Source: Bryobacterales bacterium
GTDB lineage: Bacteria > Acidobacteriota > Terriglobia > Bryobacterales > UBA6623
Direction: 5' to 3'
Assembly: GCA_026713545.1 (NCBI GenBank)
Contig: JAPOOG010000079.1
Span: 1-64,000, forward strand
DNA length: 64,000 bases
Part shown: piece after piece, positions 23,251-38,163 of the stretch
How the letters are laid out: every line of letters begins with the position of its first letter
Numbering within the stretch: the first letter of the stretch is position 1
Program-made: the position numbers and the translations under genes
The notes under the pieces: generated by a model
What the model saw: the letters and a program-made list of their open reading frames with translations, nothing else
Told to the model about the DNA's origin: nothing
Database searches by the model: none

Positions 23251-23490
23251 TCAAGAGGTTTCCCAAGCGCTGCGATAATCCAGCTTGTCGTCTCCGACAC
23301 ACAGAAACAACTTGCCCCCGGTAGTTTTCTGCTGATTGCGGCAGCCGAACTTTGCCGTGCATTGATCGAAACGGTTCTTGTAGGGACAGCGCTGGGTCGA
23401 CAGCTCGTCGGCGTGCTGGATCATCTCTGCGAATATCGCGGAGATCTGGTCCAGACGTTTCTGGTATTCCTCTTTGTCGATCTTTGTCAT
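23251..23490 (-). CDS. 79-residue four-cysteine protein, last gene of corrinoid operon
   Basis: Not recognised as a named family. From the ATG at 23490 it has an N-terminal amphipathic helix (KEEYQKRLDQISAIFAEMIQHADEL) and then four cysteines at residues 35, 44, 50 and 64 in CPYKNRFDQCTAKFGC and LFLCVGDD. Four cysteines with basic residues between them would suit an Fe-S cluster or a zinc knuckle. It begins 8 bases after the stop of the corrinoid-protein gene and has no clear Shine-Dalgarno, which points to translational coupling and a shared role, perhaps electron delivery or cofactor handling for the corrinoid. That role is inference. A longer frame to 23553 overlaps the upstream gene and is not used. 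Confidence 0.72.
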   Translation of the reverse strand: MTKIDKEEYQKRLDQISAIFAEMIQHADELSTQRCPYKNRFDQCTAKFGCRNQQKTTGGKLFLCVGDDKLDYRSAWETS

Positions 23491-23498
23491 GAGGGAAG

Positions 23499-24260
23499 TT
23501 AGCTCACGGCTTCCACTTCTTCGCTGACCAACCGCTTGGCGAGAGCGACGCATTCCATGGCGTCCTTCCCGTAGCCGTCGGCGCCCATGTCATTAGCGAA
23601 TTCCTTACTTACCGGCGCACCACCGACCATGATCTTCACGTCGTCGCGGATGCCTTCGTCGATGAACGTCTCAATCGTAACCGCCATGTTCGGCATGGTC
23701 GTCGTCAGCAGCGCGGACATCCCCATAAGAGGCGCGTTGTGCCCCTCCACCGCCTCCAGAAACTCGTCGGCGGAGGTGTCCACACCCAGATCGAACACCT
23801 CGAAACCCGAGCCGCGCAGCATCATGATGCAGAGGTTCTTGCCAATGTCGTGTAGGTCGCCCTTGACCGTGCCCATCACGACCCGGCCGATGGGCTCGAT
23901 CCCCGAAGCGGAAAGAATGGGCTCGATGTGCGCCATGCCGGCTTTCATGGCCCGCGCACAACTCAATACTTCCGGCACATAGATGAAGTTCTCGCGAAAC
24001 TTGATGCCCACGATCCGCATCGCTGCGATCAAGCCGTCGTCCATCACTTCGAGTGCCGGCACGCCATCCGCCAGCGCCTTCTGTGTCAACTGATCGACGG
24101 TCTTGTGCTGTCCGTCAATGAGAGCTGCGCCGATCGCCTGCATCTGCGAGCTGCTCTTCGCTAAGGTCTCGATGACGGATTCGCGTTCGTCCGGCTGCTC
24201 CAGGTACTCCTCGATTTCGTTGCGGACGAACTCGTTCGCGATGTCGTTGATGGAAGCCAT
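23499..24260 (-). CDS. Corrinoid (B12)-binding methyl-carrier protein, MtaC/MtbC-like
   Basis: 253 residues. The N-terminal part (about 30-110) is the helical B12-binding cap (ALIDGQHKTVDQLTQKALADGVPALEVMDDGLIAAMRIVG); the C-terminal part is a B12-binding Rossmann domain with the base-off ligand motif DLHDIGKN (135-142; His137 is the cobalt ligand), then GFEVFDLGVDTSADEFLEAV and MVGGAPVSKEFANDMGADGYGKDA. Such proteins shuttle a methyl group between a substrate methyltransferase and an acceptor enzyme. I take the ATG at 24260; the open frame to 24383 overlaps the upstream gene. It lies 20 bases after the UroD-family methyltransferase gene, its likely partner. No trimethylamine-type or MtaB-type methyltransferase, nor a RamA-type activator, is nearby. 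Confidence 0.93.
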   Translation of the reverse strand: MASINDIANEFVRNEIEEYLEQPDERESVIETLAKSSSQMQAIGAALIDGQHKTVDQLTQKALADGVPALEVMDDGLIAAMRIVGIKFRENFIYVPEVLSCARAMKAGMAHIEPILSASGIEPIGRVVMGTVKGDLHDIGKNLCIMMLRGSGFEVFDLGVDTSADEFLEAVEGHNAPLMGMSALLTTTMPNMAVTIETFIDEGIRDDVKIMVGGAPVSKEFANDMGADGYGKDAMECVALAKRLVSEEVEAVS

Positions 24261-24279
24261 GCCCGTGCGCCGCTGATCC

Positions 24280-25305
24280 TCAGTTTGGCGTCGAGTGGTC
24301 CCGATGCCATTCTTTGACGGCTTTGGGGATCTCCTTGAGGTTTTCGATCGACGTTTGGAGCGGGATAGCGCACTCGGGACCAATCAAGTTCACATTTGCC
24401 TCGAGGTTGCGATACACCTCCTGGCGAACCTCCTCGGGCCCCTTGGCGAAAAGAGTTTCCGGGTTGTTGATGTTGCCGACGAGGGAGATTCGGTCCTTCA
24501 CAATCGCCATTGCCTCGTTCGGCGGGTTCTTCGAGTCATAGTGGAAAGCCGCCATGCCCGATTGCGCGATGTAGTCCATGCGATCAAGCGTCTTGCCGCA
24601 GATATGGAGAATCAGCGGCACCGGAAGTCTTTCCACCATCTCGATATGCAGATCGAGCAGGAACTCCTTGTAGTACTCGCCGCTCACAAGATCTCCGGTC
24701 GCGTGATCGGGCAGCGTCAGGGCGTCAGCACCGGCCTCGATTTGCGCCCTACCATACTCGACCGTCGCCTTTTTCATGCGGTCGAGACATAACTTCGTCT
24801 TGCCGGGGTCATCAAGCGACATCAGCAGGAACGGTTCCACGCCGAAGCAGTGATACCCCAACGTCCAGGGGCCCATCGTCTTGCCGATAATCGCGACTTC
24901 GTCGCCGTACTGCTTCTTCAAGATCTTGATCGCTTCGGTCACGCACTTCGTGTCGTTGTGCGTGAGGAAGTCCGAGGGCAGTTTGATGTCGTCGGGTTCC
25001 ACCCAGATCGGCTCACGCATTCTGACCGTGGGCCAGTTGTCCTTCTGTTCCCATTGCATCTTGCATCCCAAGGCCGAAGACTCCTGGATGATCGTGAAGA
25101 CCGGCATGATGGAATCGAAGCCCAGTTCGGTGTAGCCGGTGGCGGAGAGGCGAGCCATCATCTCAGGATTGCGGTTCGCTTCGGGAAACGGCGCGTCGAC
25201 CAGATCCATCAACTCCACTGTTGCCAACGAGGTTGGGTTGCAAGCCGGCGTACGATCGACCGGCTCTCGCCGAAAGGCAGCCAGGACTCGTTCGCGTCCG
25301 GTCAT
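24280..25305 (-). CDS. UroD/MtaA/CmuA-family methyltransferase
   Basis: 341 residues of the uroporphyrinogen decarboxylase superfamily, in the branch of zinc-dependent methyltransferases. It starts MTGRERVLAAFRREPVDRTP, a typical opening for this branch, and carries the zinc motif His-x-Cys (HICG, His234/Cys236) and a distant Cys312 (IGPECAIP). MtaA, MtbA and CmuA use that site to activate a thiol or other acceptor and move methyl groups to or from a corrinoid protein. A corrinoid-protein gene follows 20 bases downstream, so the pair probably forms a methyl-transfer system. The true haem enzyme HemE lacks this zinc motif. The methyl donor and the acceptor are not known; Acidobacteriota do not use coenzyme M in general metabolism. 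Confidence 0.92.
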   Translation of the reverse strand: MTGRERVLAAFRREPVDRTPACNPTSLATVELMDLVDAPFPEANRNPEMMARLSATGYTELGFDSIMPVFTIIQESSALGCKMQWEQKDNWPTVRMREPIWVEPDDIKLPSDFLTHNDTKCVTEAIKILKKQYGDEVAIIGKTMGPWTLGYHCFGVEPFLLMSLDDPGKTKLCLDRMKKATVEYGRAQIEAGADALTLPDHATGDLVSGEYYKEFLLDLHIEMVERLPVPLILHICGKTLDRMDYIAQSGMAAFHYDSKNPPNEAMAIVKDRISLVGNINNPETLFAKGPEEVRQEVYRNLEANVNLIGPECAIPLQTSIENLKEIPKAVKEWHRDHSTPN

Positions 25306-25316
25306 AACGTATAGGT

Positions 25317-25961
25317 CTACTGATTCTGAGCGCTGGGAGCCAGCAACTGTCCCCGGGCCAACGCCATTTGCTGTTCGCGCTCAACGCCCCTGACATTCAA
25401 CGCGCGGATCAGCAGCAACCCCACCAGTTTATCGTGGGAGTGCCCGCAGGGAAATGCGAAGCGCTCCTCGTCACTTTCGAGCCATTCCATCTCTCCGAGC
25501 TTCACAAGGCCGGCGCCGATGGCAGTCCGGCGCTTTTCTCCCCGATCGCTCTTCAACTCTCCGGTGACGCGGTATGCGCCGTCGACGAGGATCGAGACGT
25601 TAACGTTTCCGTCTGACTTCTTGTCAAAGATCGTCAGCGGCTTCGGCTCCACGGCATCGGCCGGGTCCCATTTGCAAGATTCCAGGAAAACTCGCCTGCA
25701 GGCGAAATCGTGAGAGCTGTTGCACGCAAACCTCACCCTCAGGCCATCGCCCTCGACCGACTCCATGCCGCCGAGAACGACCATCGTACGTGTTACAAAC
25801 TCTACACGCTCCCGAGCACCGTCAATGCTGCTGTACGTGTGAACAAGGAACTCGGGACCTTGCGCGCCTGATTGGCGATAGAGCCCGATCGAGATCTGGT
25901 GGAAATGCGAGTCCATCGAGACCAACTCGATTCGGCGCCCGATATCGGTCGTGAGGCTCAT
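25317..25961 (-). CDS. Unknown two-repeat protein with CxxSHD motifs, first gene of corrinoid operon
   Basis: Not recognised. 214 residues from the ATG at 25961 (MSLTTDIGRR). The protein appears to be an internal duplication: repeat one (about 10-97) and repeat two (about 108-192) share order and motifs, most clearly GGMESVEGDGLRVRFACNSSHD (65-85) against GEMEWLESDEERFAFPCGHSHD (156-177), each with Cys-x-x-Ser-His-Asp. No signal peptide or membrane segment. A Cys/His/Asp cluster repeated twice would suit a bound metal or a redox role. It ends 11 bases before the UroD-family methyltransferase gene, so it is very probably co-transcribed with the methyl-transfer genes and may be a substrate, acceptor or activation protein. 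That job is inference. Confidence 0.7.
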   Translation of the reverse strand: MSLTTDIGRRIELVSMDSHFHQISIGLYRQSGAQGPEFLVHTYSSIDGARERVEFVTRTMVVLGGMESVEGDGLRVRFACNSSHDFACRRVFLESCKWDPADAVEPKPLTIFDKKSDGNVNVSILVDGAYRVTGELKSDRGEKRRTAIGAGLVKLGEMEWLESDEERFAFPCGHSHDKLVGLLLIRALNVRGVEREQQMALARGQLLAPSAQNQ

Positions 25962-26387: not shown

Positions 26388-27608
26388 ATGAAACGATCCC
26401 GAACCCGCAGAAGTTTTATCAAAGCAACTACGACCGGCGCGGCCGCGGCCGGGCTCGTAAGTTGCGGAGAGTCCGCCCGATCGCCGATCGACGGAACCAC
26501 CAGCACGGTTACCTACGAAAGCCTTGGCGTGCGGCACGTCATCAACGGAGTCGGTGTAGTGACGGTTCTCGGAGGCTCGATCATGCCACCGGAGGTCGTC
26601 GCCGCGATGGTCGAGGCATCCAAGAACTTCATTGATCTACCCGAGCTGCAGGTGAAGGTCGGCAAGCGCATCGCCGAGATCATTGGCGTTCCCGGCGCGA
26701 TGATCTGCTGCGGGGCGGCTTCCGGCCTGACCGTCGGGACCGCGGCTTGTGTCACACGGGGCGACAACAAGAAGCTGCGCCAACTACCCGACACGACCGG
26801 CATGCCCAACGAGGTTATCATCCAGAAAAATCATCGCTTTGGCTTCGACACGCAGATTTGGATGGCCGGCACCAGACCCATCGAGGTCGAGACGAGGGAA
26901 GAGCTCGAGAAGGCCATCAACGAGCGCACGGCCATGATGTTCTTCTTGAACGACGCCGAACCCAAGGGCCGGATCACGCGTGCTGAGTGGATCGAGGTCG
27001 GCAAGAAACACGGCATACCCACGATGAACGACTGTGCTTCCGATGTTCCTCCCGTCAGCCGGCTGCGCCAGTACATCGACGAAGGGTTCGACCTCGCCGT
27101 CTTCTCCGGCGGTAAGGGGCTACTCGGACCGCAGGCCAGCGGCCTTGTGCTCGGCGACGCCGAACTTGTCGCCGCCGCGCTCAAGGCCAGCAGCCCACGC
27201 GCCGGCGTTGGGCGGGGCATGAAGGTCGGCAAGGAAGAGATCATGGGCCTGCTGGCAGCCGTTGAGCGCTACCACCGCATCGATCACGACGCTGAGCGCC
27301 GCGAACTCGACGCCCGCGCTGAGCACGTCATCCGGACGCTGGGCGGCGTCGATGGAGTTGAGACCGAACTGCACATTCCGCCCATCGCCAATCGCGTTCC
27401 CCACGTCCTCGTTAGCTGGGATGCCGCCGCGAAAGGTCTCACACCCGCCGACGCGGTCAAGAAACTGCGCGAGGGCGAACCAGCGATCGCCGTCTCGCAA
27501 AACCCCGAGGGCCTACGCATCAGAGAGGGCCTACGCATCTCCATGTGGATGCTCAAGCCCGGCGAGCACGAAATCGTCGCGGAGCGTGTCAAGGAGTTGT
27601 TCGCCTAG
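26388..27608 (+). CDS. Tat-exported SelA-like PLP-dependent enzyme
   Basis: 406 residues from the ATG at 26388 (an in-frame TTG lies two codons upstream). The N-terminus is a twin-arginine signal with a lipobox-like end (TRRSFIKATTTGAAAAGLVSC), so a folded, probably lipid-anchored protein is exported. The body is a fold-type I PLP enzyme of the SelA/DgaE-like group: YESLGVRHVINGVGVVTVLGGSIMPPEVVAAM, a cofactor site near MNDCASDVPP, and FSGGKGLLGPQASG with the Schiff-base Lys at about 243. Relatives handle amino-sugar acids or seryl-tRNA; the substrate here is unknown. An 18-bp internal duplication (27507-27539) repeats EGLRIR. Fragments of this gene and of the M20 peptidase gene are duplicated downstream. 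Confidence 0.85.
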   Translation: MKRSRTRRSFIKATTTGAAAAGLVSCGESARSPIDGTTSTVTYESLGVRHVINGVGVVTVLGGSIMPPEVVAAMVEASKNFIDLPELQVKVGKRIAEIIGVPGAMICCGAASGLTVGTAACVTRGDNKKLRQLPDTTGMPNEVIIQKNHRFGFDTQIWMAGTRPIEVETREELEKAINERTAMMFFLNDAEPKGRITRAEWIEVGKKHGIPTMNDCASDVPPVSRLRQYIDEGFDLAVFSGGKGLLGPQASGLVLGDAELVAAALKASSPRAGVGRGMKVGKEEIMGLLAAVERYHRIDHDAERRELDARAEHVIRTLGGVDGVETELHIPPIANRVPHVLVSWDAAAKGLTPADAVKKLREGEPAIAVSQNPEGLRIREGLRISMWMLKPGEHEIVAERVKELFA

Positions 27609-27657
27609 CCAACTCATCACGTTCGCCTATCCTGGACACAGAGTTTTCCTCCAGAGT

Positions 27658-27903
27658 GTTCGTGCTCCGACCGGCCCTTCTGCTTATGCTGCTGCTGAGA
27701 GAGAATCTCCGAAGAGTGGCCCCGTTCCTCGCCGCGAACGCGGCTACGCTCGTGTTGACGACGGTATTTCCCAAGATTGCGCCATGGCTGCCGGAACAGC
27801 TGATGTCGCAGGCCCAACTCCGGCCGCTATCCCAGCCTTATCCTCTCCATCCACGAGTTGACGCGAACGACCGTTCCCTCGACCTGTCTCGGATACACTG
27901 CTA
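27658..27903 (+). pseudogene. Mosaic fossil: M20 peptidase 5' end joined to TRAP transporter dctM 3' end
   Basis: From a GTG at 27658 the first 18 codons (FVLRPALLLMLLL) match the start of the intact M20 gene at 29336 (FVLRPTLLLLLLL), including the upstream bases. At about 27713 the homology ends and the frame continues as RVAPFLAANAATLVLTTVFPKIAPWLPEQL, which has the pattern of the C-terminus of TRAP transporter large permeases (PF-x-ad-x(3)-L-x(3)-FP-x(3)-LWLP), then ends at a stop near 27903. No complete gene of either kind is present here. It looks like two gene fragments fused by rearrangement. The DctM assignment rests on about 30 residues. Confidence 0.5.
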
Positions 27904-29126: not shown

Positions 29127-29288
29127 ATGGAAGATCACACACTCTGCGATGCTGTGAAGAATCTCCTGGAGAGCAAAGCGGAGATAACCGTCTCGCAATA
29201 CCTGGAGGGTCTGCGCACCTCGATATGGATGCTCAAGCCCGGACAGCACGAAATCGTAGCTACGCGCGTCAAAGAGTTATTCGCGTAG
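29127..29288 (+). pseudogene. 3' fragment of a second SelA-like PLP gene
   Basis: The 53 codons before the stop at 29286-29288 match the C-terminus of the SelA-like gene ending at 27608: VSQYLEGLRTSIWMLKPGQH against VSQNPEGLR...ISMWMLKPGEH, then EIVATRVKELFA against EIVAERVKELFA. The rest of the gene is absent; upstream is the end of the esterase gene. This copy lacks the 18-bp internal duplication seen in the intact gene, so it keeps the older state. The sequence after the stop continues to match, into the M20 peptidase leader. Confidence 0.75.
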
Positions 29289-29335
29289 CCAACTCGCCAC
29301 ATTCGTTTATCCTGGACAAGGAGGTTTCCTTCAGA

Positions 29336-30727
29336 GTGTTCGTACTCCGACCAACCCTTCTACTTCTCCTCCTGCTGCCTGCCGCAGCACAAACGCCGGA
29401 CTGGCTCCAAGCTCGTCAAGAAGCGCTGGAAACCCTCGTCGATCTTGTTCGGCTCGACACCTCGCAGCCCGAGGGCAACGAGATCCTTGCCGCGAACTAC
29501 CTCAAGAAAAAGCTCGACGCCGATGGCATCCCGTCAGAAATCTTCGAGGCAAAACCCGGCCGCGCCAGCATCGTCGCCCGAGTCAAGGGCAACGGAAAGA
29601 AAAAGCCACTTCTGCTGCTCGGGCACCTCGATGTTGTAGCCGTCGAACGTGATGAATGGTCGTTCAACCCCTTTGGCGGTGTTGTCAAAGACGGCATCAT
29701 CTTCGGCCGCGGCGCCGGCGATGACAAAGGCGTCGTCTCAGGATCATTACAAGTGCTGCTCCTGTTGCATCGGCTGAAGATCCCGCTCGACCGCGACGTC
29801 ATCTTCCTCGGCGTCGCCGACGAAGAAGCCGGTGGGCTCGCCGGGATCACCTACCTGCTCGATAATCGTCGTGAAGCCATTGACGCCGAGTTTGCGATCA
29901 ACGAAGGCGGCGCCGGCGTCTTCGATCGCCGGTTCGAGCACGTGCGTTTCGAGATCCAGACCGCCGAAAAGACACCGCGCCGCATCGACCTGCAAGCCAA
30001 GGGTACCTCGGGCCATGGCTCGATACCCTTGCTCGATAACCCCGTTGCAGCGCTTTCGCGCGCTGTGGGCCGCCTGTCGGAATACGAAACGCCCGTTCAC
30101 CTCAACGAAACGACGCGCGAGTACTTCCGCCGCCTTGCCAAACACGCGCCGCCCGAGGAAGCCGCGGTTTATAACGAGGTTCTCGGAGGGAGCCCAAGTA
30201 CCGAAACGCAACAGAAACTACGGGAGATCAGCCCGCTGTTTTACTCGATGATCCGCACATCGATCGTCCCGACGATCGTCAAGGGCGGCTATCTCAAGAA
30301 CGTTATCCCCTCGGAAGCGGAAGCCACCGTCGATATCCGCGCTCTGCCTCACGAGGACCCCGAAGAACTCTTCCCCCGACTCAAGCGGATCATGAACGAG
30401 CCCAAGGTCGACCTCATGCCGCACCCCGTCACGCGCCCGAAGCACCAGCCTTCGTCATTGAAGTCGGATGTCTTCCGAGCTTTCGAAAAAGTGCTCGATC
30501 AGCGCTATCCGGGCATTCTCATTCTGCCTCGCATGTCCACCGGCGCGACCGACTCGGCACAACTCCGCGCCGCCGGCATCGAGTCCTATGGCTTTGGCCC
30601 GGGCCGGGCCGTTTGGGACCTCGCGGGCGGCATCCATGGCAAGGACGAGTACCTCTACGTCGAACCCTTTCAGGACTACGTTGAAATCCTCTACGACGTC
30701 GTCATCGAAGTAGCCGGTTCGAAGTGA
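29336..30727 (+). CDS. Secreted M20-family metallopeptidase
   Basis: 463 residues. The start is a GTG at 29336: AAGGAGG lies 10 bases before it and the signal peptide (FVLRPTLLLLLLLPAAAQT) follows at once. The M20 di-zinc site is intact: LLLLGHLDVV (His and Asp), GRGAGDDKG (bridging Asp), LGVADEEAGG (Glu pair, including the general base), ATVDIRALPHED in the dimerisation region, and a C-terminal metal His in GGIHGKDEYL. M20 enzymes act as carboxypeptidases, aminoacylases or succinyl-diaminopimelate-type deacylases. The leader overlaps the fossil end of a second SelA-like gene, showing that the PLP gene and this peptidase gene were once adjacent. A longer open frame from 29225 reads through that fossil and is not coding. 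Confidence 0.92.
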   Translation: MFVLRPTLLLLLLLPAAAQTPDWLQARQEALETLVDLVRLDTSQPEGNEILAANYLKKKLDADGIPSEIFEAKPGRASIVARVKGNGKKKPLLLLGHLDVVAVERDEWSFNPFGGVVKDGIIFGRGAGDDKGVVSGSLQVLLLLHRLKIPLDRDVIFLGVADEEAGGLAGITYLLDNRREAIDAEFAINEGGAGVFDRRFEHVRFEIQTAEKTPRRIDLQAKGTSGHGSIPLLDNPVAALSRAVGRLSEYETPVHLNETTREYFRRLAKHAPPEEAAVYNEVLGGSPSTETQQKLREISPLFYSMIRTSIVPTIVKGGYLKNVIPSEAEATVDIRALPHEDPEELFPRLKRIMNEPKVDLMPHPVTRPKHQPSSLKSDVFRAFEKVLDQRYPGILILPRMSTGATDSAQLRAAGIESYGFGPGRAVWDLAGGIHGKDEYLYVEPFQDYVEILYDVVIEVAGSK

Positions 30728-36383: not shown

Positions 36384-37298
36384 TTAGAACTCGGTAAACG
36401 CCTTGAACTCCCGATATCTTGCTTCGATATCGTCGCGTGTCAAGTTCCGCAGCCTCTCCACGCCGAATTTTTCACAGCAAAAGCTGCCCATCACCGAGCC
36501 GTAGATCATGGCTTTGCGGAGATGGGAGTGCGTCGCATCGTCGAGACTCTCGATTCCCTGCTCGGTCAGATACCCCATGAAGCCCCCGGCGAACGAGTCA
36601 CCTGCGCCCGTCGGATCGAACACGGTTTGTAGCAAAAAGCCAGGAGCGATGAAGTAACCCTCCGGACGGAACAGGATTGCTCCGTACTCGCCACGCTTGA
36701 TAACCACCGTCTGCGGCCCCATCTCCTGGATTTTTCTCGCAGCGCTGAGTAGGTTGTATTCTCCTGCCAGCAAGCGCGCCTCGCTGTCGTTGATCAGGAT
36801 GAAGTCCCACTGCTCGATCGCCGCCGCAAGTTCGTCCGGGGTCCCTTCAATCCAGAAATTCATCGTGTCACCGCCGACGAACCGCGGCGAAGCGATCTGG
36901 TCACGCACCTGCCTCTGCAGGTTGGGATGAATGTTGCCCAGAAAGGAATAGGGAGTCTCTTGGTAGGATGCGGGCAGCTTCGGGTTGAAGTCGGCGAACA
37001 CATTGAGCTGCGTCGTCAGCGTTGTCCGCTCGTTCATGTCATGGGAATAGGCGCCGCGCCAGAAGAACGTCTTGCCCGGCATCTTTTCCAGTCCTTCGAG
37101 GTCAACACCATGATCGGCAAGGAGTTGCTCGTCCTCAGCAGCAAAATCCTCGCCGACCACGCCGACAAGCTTCACCTCAGCAAAGTGACTTGCGGCGAGC
37201 GAGATATAAGTGCCGGCACCGCCGAGCATGCGGTCGACTTTGCCGTGAGGAGTTTCAACTCCGTCGTATGCGACAGACCCGACAACAAGAAGAGCCAT
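36384..37298 (-). CDS. PfkB-family sugar/nucleoside kinase
   Basis: 304 residues of the ribokinase/PfkB superfamily. Visible are an N-terminal GSVAYDGVETPHGKVDRMLGGAGTYISLAASHF (substrate pocket and GG motif), and the C-terminal PfkB signature DPTGAGDSFAGGFMGYL with the anion hole and catalytic Asp. It phosphorylates a small sugar-like or nucleoside substrate with ATP. The gene begins 11 bases after the end of the MTA phosphorylase gene on the same strand, so the substrate may be linked to that pathway (5-methylthioribose-1-phosphate, ribose or adenosine). This assignment is inference from context only. Confidence 0.9.
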   Translation of the reverse strand: MALLVVGSVAYDGVETPHGKVDRMLGGAGTYISLAASHFAEVKLVGVVGEDFAAEDEQLLADHGVDLEGLEKMPGKTFFWRGAYSHDMNERTTLTTQLNVFADFNPKLPASYQETPYSFLGNIHPNLQRQVRDQIASPRFVGGDTMNFWIEGTPDELAAAIEQWDFILINDSEARLLAGEYNLLSAARKIQEMGPQTVVIKRGEYGAILFRPEGYFIAPGFLLQTVFDPTGAGDSFAGGFMGYLTEQGIESLDDATHSHLRKAMIYGSVMGSFCCEKFGVERLRNLTRDDIEARYREFKAFTEF

Positions 37299-37308
37299 GT
37301 TGACGGGC

Positions 37309-38163
37309 CTACAGATACTTCCCGATCAATAGCCGGTACTTCTCTTTTGACGCTTCAGAGATCTTGGAGCGATCGGTAATGATGGCGTTCCTGATTGCCG
37401 AGGAAAACGGGCTGTCGCCGTCGGGGATTCGCTTGACGGCTTCCGCCGCCACCATCCTGGCATGCTCGGCGTTTTCGGTGAGATAAGCGATCACTTGCTC
37501 GACCGTCACGTCATCGTGTTCGGGGTGCCAACAGTCATAGTCCGTCACCATGGCGATCGTGACATATGACATTTCGGCCTCGCGCGCGAGCTTGGCTTCC
37601 TGCAAGTTCGTCATGCCGATCACGTCGAATCCCCACGATCGGTAGGCATGTGACTCCGCACGCGTTGAGAACGCGGGACCCTCCATGCAACAGTACGTTC
37701 CGCCGCGATGGACCGTGACGCCCGCCTGCTTGCAGGCTTCCTCAGCAACATCGGACAGGGTCGAGCAAACGGGGTCCGCGAAGCCGACGTGAACCGCAAT
37801 ATCCTCATCAAAGAACGTGGACGCTCGCCCGCGCGTGCGGTCAAAGAATTGATCGGGAATACAGAAGTCAAGAGGTTTGAGATTTTCCCTGAGCGAGCCC
37901 ACGGCGCTGAATGAGAGAATCCACTGCACACCGAGCCTCTTGAGCGCATAAATATTCGCTCGAAAATTGAGATTCGAGGGCATGATGCGGTGCCCCCGGC
38001 CATGGCGGGCCAGGAAGGCGACTGCTCGGCCTTCCAGCTTCCCGAGCAAGAAGGCATCCGAAGGATTTCCCCAAGGAGTTTCGACGGTCTGCTCGACGCG
38101 GTCGGTGAGGCGCGGCATGTTGTAGAGCCCGCTTCCTCCAATGATTCCAATCTTTGGTGTCAT
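37309..38163 (-). CDS. mtnP: S-methyl-5'-thioadenosine phosphorylase
   Basis: 284 residues. Cleaves methylthioadenosine, a by-product of polyamine and other SAM-using pathways, to adenine and 5-methylthioribose-1-phosphate. It starts MTPKIGIIGGSGLYNMP, and carries the family's ARHGRGHRIMPSNLNFRANIYALKRLG phosphate/purine block, SLRENLKPLDFCIPDQFFDRT, TYCCMEGPAFSTRAES and IGMTNLQEAKLAREAE (with the Met/Asn purine contacts), and TDYDCWHPEHDDV at the end. This matches trimeric MTAP rather than purine nucleoside phosphorylase. It is followed 10 bases later by a PfkB kinase gene. No mtnA/K/B is nearby, so downstream salvage must be encoded elsewhere. Confidence 0.95.
   Translation of the reverse strand: MTPKIGIIGGSGLYNMPRLTDRVEQTVETPWGNPSDAFLLGKLEGRAVAFLARHGRGHRIMPSNLNFRANIYALKRLGVQWILSFSAVGSLRENLKPLDFCIPDQFFDRTRGRASTFFDEDIAVHVGFADPVCSTLSDVAEEACKQAGVTVHRGGTYCCMEGPAFSTRAESHAYRSWGFDVIGMTNLQEAKLAREAEMSYVTIAMVTDYDCWHPEHDDVTVEQVIAYLTENAEHARMVAAEAVKRIPDGDSPFSSAIRNAIITDRSKISEASKEKYRLLIGKYL

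Follow-up and report, generated by a model that had tools for sequence, protein, structure and literature searches.

A four-gene corrinoid operon with two undescribed protein families, probably part of a methyl-transfer system in several phyla

Four adjacent genes in the genome of an uncultured acidobacterium (Bryobacterales) are part of a B12-dependent system that occurs across several phyla and probably strips methyl groups from a sulfur-type compound. The genes lie in a stretch of 64,000 nucleotides (contig JAPOOG010000079.1), here called the window. The chemistry is known. What is new is that two conserved protein families are attached to it for which no Pfam, NCBIfam or PDB relative was found. 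No report of an operon of this composition was found in the literature either. The genes are, in order of transcription:

P1, 25317..25961, minus strand: 214 aa, no described family, duplicated internally, FxC-x3-H in each half (C80/H84 and C172/H176), neighbour of UroD.
UroD, 24280..25305, minus strand: 341 aa, MtaA/CmuA-type TIM-barrel methyltransferase, predicted zinc ligands H234, C236 and C312, proposed methyl-donor methyltransferase (MT1).
Cor, 23499..24260, minus strand: 253 aa, methyl-carrying corrinoid protein, B12-binding_2 cap plus B12-binding domain, GDLHDIG motif.
P4, 23251..23490, minus strand: 79 aa, invariant cysteines C35-x8-C44-x5-C50-x13-C64, found in other phyla as a domain at the N-terminus of the RACo activator.

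All four reading frames are intact, and the gaps between them are 11, 19 and 8 bases. An earlier sequence-only reading had this anatomy right to the base, including the positions, the gaps, the CxxSHD repeats of P1 and the four cysteines of P4. It also took the genes for an operon of corrinoid methyl transfer in which two proteins are unknown, and the domain searches bear this out. UroD belongs to PF01208 (E 3.6e-67). Cor has the B12-binding cap and the DxHxxG domain of a corrinoid protein (PF02607 and PF02310). P1 and P4 match nothing in Pfam and nothing meaningful in NCBIfam. None of the four proteins matches PF06253, the MttB family (MtgB). No Rfam element was found near the operon. On plasmids, UroD has no close relative and P1 has none, and no CmuA was among the matches listed.

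The arrangement is not a chance one, because 6 of 100 relatives keep the four genes in this order, and both P1 and P4 are found in precisely these six genomes. These represent four genera, the window's own and three others of the order, with identities of 44-92% for P1 and 75-96% for UroD. The gene neighbourhood, whose lack of conservation would have counted against the sequence-only reading, is conserved. Across the phylum, P1 is present in 5 of 396 genomes, the window's own included, and P4 is found in the same lineages save for one match. That match (G127, E 3e-4) is apparently a chance open reading frame with none of the operon's genes nearby, and was set aside.

In relatives the operon is longer. 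The composite order is a GntR regulator, then P1-UroD-Cor-P4-RACo activator-MTHFR-MeTr-(HcyMT)-small PF13769 protein, where MeTr is a methyl-tetrahydrofolate (THF) methyltransferase and HcyMT a homocysteine S-methyltransferase. Three relatives (G041, G063 and G068) have RACo and MeTr after P4 and a divergent FCD-type GntR regulator; a fourth, G002, has RACo directly after P4. In a different class of the same phylum the order is PF13769 protein-P1-UroD-MeTr-Cor-P4-RACo-MTHFR. The RACo orthologs have the domains Fer2, Raco_middle and RACo_C_ter.

When named genomes were searched with the UroD alignment, 80 loci were obtained, a sample picked by UroD similarity (77% or more). They come from metagenome-assembled genomes (MAGs) titled Poribacteria, Latescibacterota, Gemmatimonadota, Acidobacteriota, Alphaproteobacteria and Handelsmanbacteria. 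Sample names and titles suggest that many of the MAGs with the operon originate from marine sponges. P1 adjoins UroD in 80 of 80 loci, a figure that is valid for this UroD clade. Cor is adjacent in 42 of the 80, and there P4 is found every time and RACo in 39. Where more than 6.5 kb of sequence follows such a locus (35 cases), RACo is present in 34, MeTr in 23, MTHFR in 20, a homocysteine methyltransferase in 14, the PF13769 protein in 21 and GntR in 21. Where Poribacteria have P1-UroD with no Cor next to it, an orthologous Cor lies at another place in the genome, in 19 of 19 cases. Five of these second loci were read: four are Cor-P4::RACo-HcyMT, and one is Cor-P4::RACo-MTHFR-MeTr-PF13769.

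Some other genes around these loci are worth recording. Small PF13769 proteins turn up repeatedly in corrinoid methyltransferase operons of this kind (L011:4661-4927, L083:13795-14067), and the Pfam name 'Virulence factor' is probably misleading. In some lineages the operon is followed by an SDR gene and two D-2-hydroxyacid dehydrogenase-like genes, or by an Ldh_2-like dehydrogenase gene (L114:16048-18863, L147:10301-13120, L140:14335-15381). They may point to the product of demethylation, and are too lineage-bound to weigh. An APH-fold phosphotransferase gene, itself after a lipoyl synthase-like gene, sits 3 bases ahead of P1 in L096 (7345-8349) and also occurs in L122 and L154.

The sequence-only reading held that the system lacked a RamA-type activator and was minimal. 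Neither statement survives the comparison with relatives, whose operons carry both an activator and MeTr; this is the complete canonical system elsewhere that the reading itself had named as its refutation. The window's own genome (G000) also has a RACo ortholog, at G000:C20:72945-74561, with 76% identity to the operon copy of G002. A short gap after it comes HcyMT (C20:74643-75479), a candidate acceptor methyltransferase, and the pair is found in G001 too. MeTr was not found in G000, where the other PF00809 proteins are FolP, a DHPS-like paralog and MetH; the paralog had been considered as a MeTr and was rejected. For the window's genus, this absence refers to three draft genomes that are 93-99% complete. 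The sole other UroD-family protein of G000 is HemE-like (411 bits).

The GntR and MeTr genes known beside the operon in sister families are missing there in the window's genus (G000 to G002). One could read the short operon as the leftover of a decaying longer one, with regulator and MeTr lost and no working pathway. This has very little probability: the four reading frames are intact and their active-site residues conserved in three species, and the genome retains the activator and the homocysteine methyltransferase.

UroD scores above the NCBIfam cut-offs for NF004889 (260 bits) and TIGR01463 (mtaA_cmuA). Against the MtaA equivalog model it reaches 234 bits where the cut-off is 400, so it is not an MtaA equivalog, and the cut-off for MtbA is likewise far from reached. 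Its alignment with MtaA (4ay7, E 3.6e-49) covers the whole protein. The His-Cys-Cys (HCC) zinc site typical of MtaA-like proteins and soluble coenzyme M methyltransferases (SCMTs) is found in 82 of 82 UroD sequences. Kountz and Balskus associate HCC with S- and Se-methyltransferases; in O-methyltransferases, according to them, a carboxylate or a non-coordinating residue takes the place of a ligand (PMC10418091). Because the ligands are HCC throughout, the best guess is that the methyl donor is an S- or Se-methyl compound and not a methoxy compound.

A different corrinoid operon in G025, G088 and G096 has a UroD with HND at these positions, the third Cys being absent. This second operon (L055:8992-12668, L057:7195-10811, L058:9905-13286) has no P1 or P4. 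It consists of UroD, Cor, a small PF13769-like protein and RACo, and a homocysteine methyltransferase lies downstream.

The earlier statement that the operon has no substrate-specific methyltransferase overlooks UroD itself. The UroD superfamily includes substrate methyltransferases (MtvB, OdmB, VdmB, CmuA and CdmB; PMC13222342), so UroD can be the MT1, and judged by its sequence it likely is one, of MtaA-like type. The acceptor enzyme varies, being HcyMT or MeTr, and P1-UroD is constant, which would put UroD on the donor side. Also, genomes with only HcyMT offer no other evident route to load Cor, which argues for the same placement of UroD and P1. The donor-side reading is weakened by the fact that the closest tested relatives of UroD, MtaA and MtbA, methylate a thiol, in the opposite direction.

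This leads to the question of whether the flow is reversed. UroD would then act on the acceptor side as MtaA does, methylating a thiol that P1 supplies or binds, and Cor would be charged from methyl-THF by MeTr. The scores above do place UroD nearest the methylcorrinoid:thiol methyltransferases, its HCC site is of the thiol type, and MTHFR and MeTr could make and deliver the methyl-THF. Still, this direction is unlikely. In the window's genus and at four of the five split loci in Poribacteria, no MeTr lies next to Cor or RACo. What is found there is a homocysteine methyltransferase, which is not expected to charge Cor from methionine. The presence of MTHFR and of a dedicated GntR regulator of the FCD type also suits catabolism.

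The CxxSHD motifs of P1 read CNSSHD and CGHSHD, and its halves align to each other (hhalign probability 96.8, E 2.6e-10), which means that the protein is an internal duplication. C80, H84, C172 and H176 are complete in 82 of 87 P1 sequences and all missing in 5 related ones; the operons of these five lack nothing else. Because these residues are kept or lost as a unit, they probably act as one metal site, of a structural kind. The structure model is confident (pLDDT 88.5), with a tandem beta-beta-beta-alpha-beta-alpha arrangement that is not a TIM barrel. Sequence and profile searches of the PDB gave no match for P1, and a search of 46 members against Pfam gave scattered chance matches only. 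With the model as query, Foldseek found nothing in the PDB with E below 0.058. The best VIA-align result there was the PduB shell protein (Z 5.5, 85 residues, 3.7 A). As far as the model goes, this likeness is possibly just a common arrangement, and it is no demonstration of a new fold.

The sequence-only reading had offered the option that P1 is the substrate-specific MT1, with UroD merely passing the methyl group to a thiol acceptor. P1 is indeed invariably beside UroD and has a conserved Cys2His2 set. The option is nevertheless quite improbable, given that P1 is modelled as a small tandem protein with no TIM barrel and that separate acceptor enzymes exist. The loss of all four Cys and His residues in five intact operons also means that a catalytic role of the putative metal site cannot hold in general. 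Going by gene order alone, P1 would be an obligate partner of UroD, a subunit or adaptor in physical contact with it.

In 19 of the 42 loci with adjacent Cor, P4 and RACo form one in-frame fusion, with P4 at the N-terminus ahead of the [2Fe-2S] domain (E about 1e-27 to 1e-43). The remaining 23 encode P4 on its own, mostly just before RACo. The 19 natural fusions tie P4 to reactivation, a role the sequence-only reading had already suggested for the last gene. They support P4 being a domain of the RACo-type activator that has a part in corrinoid reactivation and would touch the rest of it. The four invariant cysteines may hold an Fe-S cluster or zinc; the spacing C-x8-C-x5-C is also like that of CCCH zinc fingers. 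The P4 model is weak (pLDDT 73, pTM 0.36) and too poor for a fold search, and sequence and profile searches of the PDB gave no match. Activators of the RACo class have one [2Fe-2S] or two [4Fe-4S] clusters (PMC6739815), and no description of an additional four-cysteine domain on them was found in the literature.

The explanation we prefer, and hold to be reasonably probable, is that the operon is the donor half plus the carrier of a corrinoid-dependent methyl-transfer system, with RACo and P4 for reactivation and HcyMT or MeTr as acceptor. In the window's genus, Cor would most likely pass its methyl group to homocysteine, giving methionine, via the HcyMT that lies beside the activator on another contig. 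We infer this acceptor, since HcyMT is linked to the activator and not to Cor. In relatives, the methyl group would go to THF via MeTr and then be oxidised through MTHFR. Cor that has lapsed to Co(II) would be reactivated by the RACo-type [2Fe-2S]/ASKHA protein together with P4, the latter being a domain of the activator encoded as its own gene.

A more ambitious wording is conceivable, if rather doubtful as a whole. It would be an undescribed methyl-salvage system of at least 5 phyla, in which P1 and UroD form a two-subunit demethylase acting on an S-methyl (or Se-methyl) compound that is plentiful in sponge holobionts, and in which a new four-cysteine domain makes the RACo-type activator suited to oxygen or to its electron donor.

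Corrinoid methyl transfer is not new, and several known systems are related. The closest by enzyme family are the MtaA-like proteins and SCMTs (MtaA, 4ay7; Mlps, PMC10418091), which share the full-length alignment, the His-x-Cys...Cys ligands and the subfamily cut-offs. Unlike them, the UroD described here is well under the MtaA and MtbA equivalog cut-offs, has P1 next to it and is accompanied in relatives by a THF methyltransferase. There is a single such UroD per operon, and the hosts, which are not methanogens, possess MetH.

Type 1 mlp gene clusters similarly combine an MtaA-like protein with an HCC zinc site, a corrinoid protein and a RACE-type activator (PMC10418091). In those clusters there are at least two Mlps, a THF methylase is absent within 20 kb, and the hosts are all obligate anaerobes (PMC10418091). 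The present operons have one UroD, MeTr in relatives, MeTr/MTHFR or HcyMT as partners, and P1 and P4 in addition.

The three-component demethylases with a UroD-type MT1 (MtvB, OdmB, VdmB, MtoB; CdmBCA; CmuA/CmuB; PMC13222342) also pair that enzyme with a corrinoid protein, a THF methyltransferase and a 2Fe-2S activating enzyme. They differ in that the system here has an S/Se-type zinc site and the extra proteins P1 and P4. The carboxylate or non-coordinating Cys replacements of the O-demethylases MtvB, OdmB and VdmB are seen in none of the 82 UroD sequences with P1. CmuA has its UroD and corrinoid domains in one polypeptide, whereas here they are separate genes.

The closest in logic is MtgBCDE with RamA and MetF2 in marine roseobacters. 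There a single corrinoid protein is shared between the demethylation of glycine betaine and the synthesis of methionine, and the methyl group can go to THF or homocysteine (PMC12478193; PMC5764234). That system likewise has a separate Cor, a MeTr (MtgD), a homocysteine methyltransferase (MtgE), MTHFR and a RamA-like activator. Its donor enzyme is the MttB-family MtgB in place of P1 and UroD, and it has DUF1638 where P4 is found here.

The window contains other features. A compact tandem-repeat array lies at 790-1121, with a period of about 25 bp by self-match offsets. A direct duplication of 173 bp (27525-27697 and 29205-29377, 82% identical) spans the 3' end of a SelA-like gene and the start of the downstream peptidase gene. 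At 36384-38163, an MTA phosphorylase-like gene is followed by a PfkB-type kinase gene; this is methylthio-nucleoside salvage, unlinked to the operon.

P1 and P4 now each have a concrete proposed role that can be tested, P1 as the second subunit of a UroD-type methyltransferase and P4 as a domain added to corrinoid activators. The P4 domain offers a direct way to test how Co(I) corrinoid proteins stay active in hosts that are not strictly anaerobic. And given that the operon recurs in MAGs of several groups, many with sponge-type sample names, it may open up an unrecognised methyl flow in such communities.
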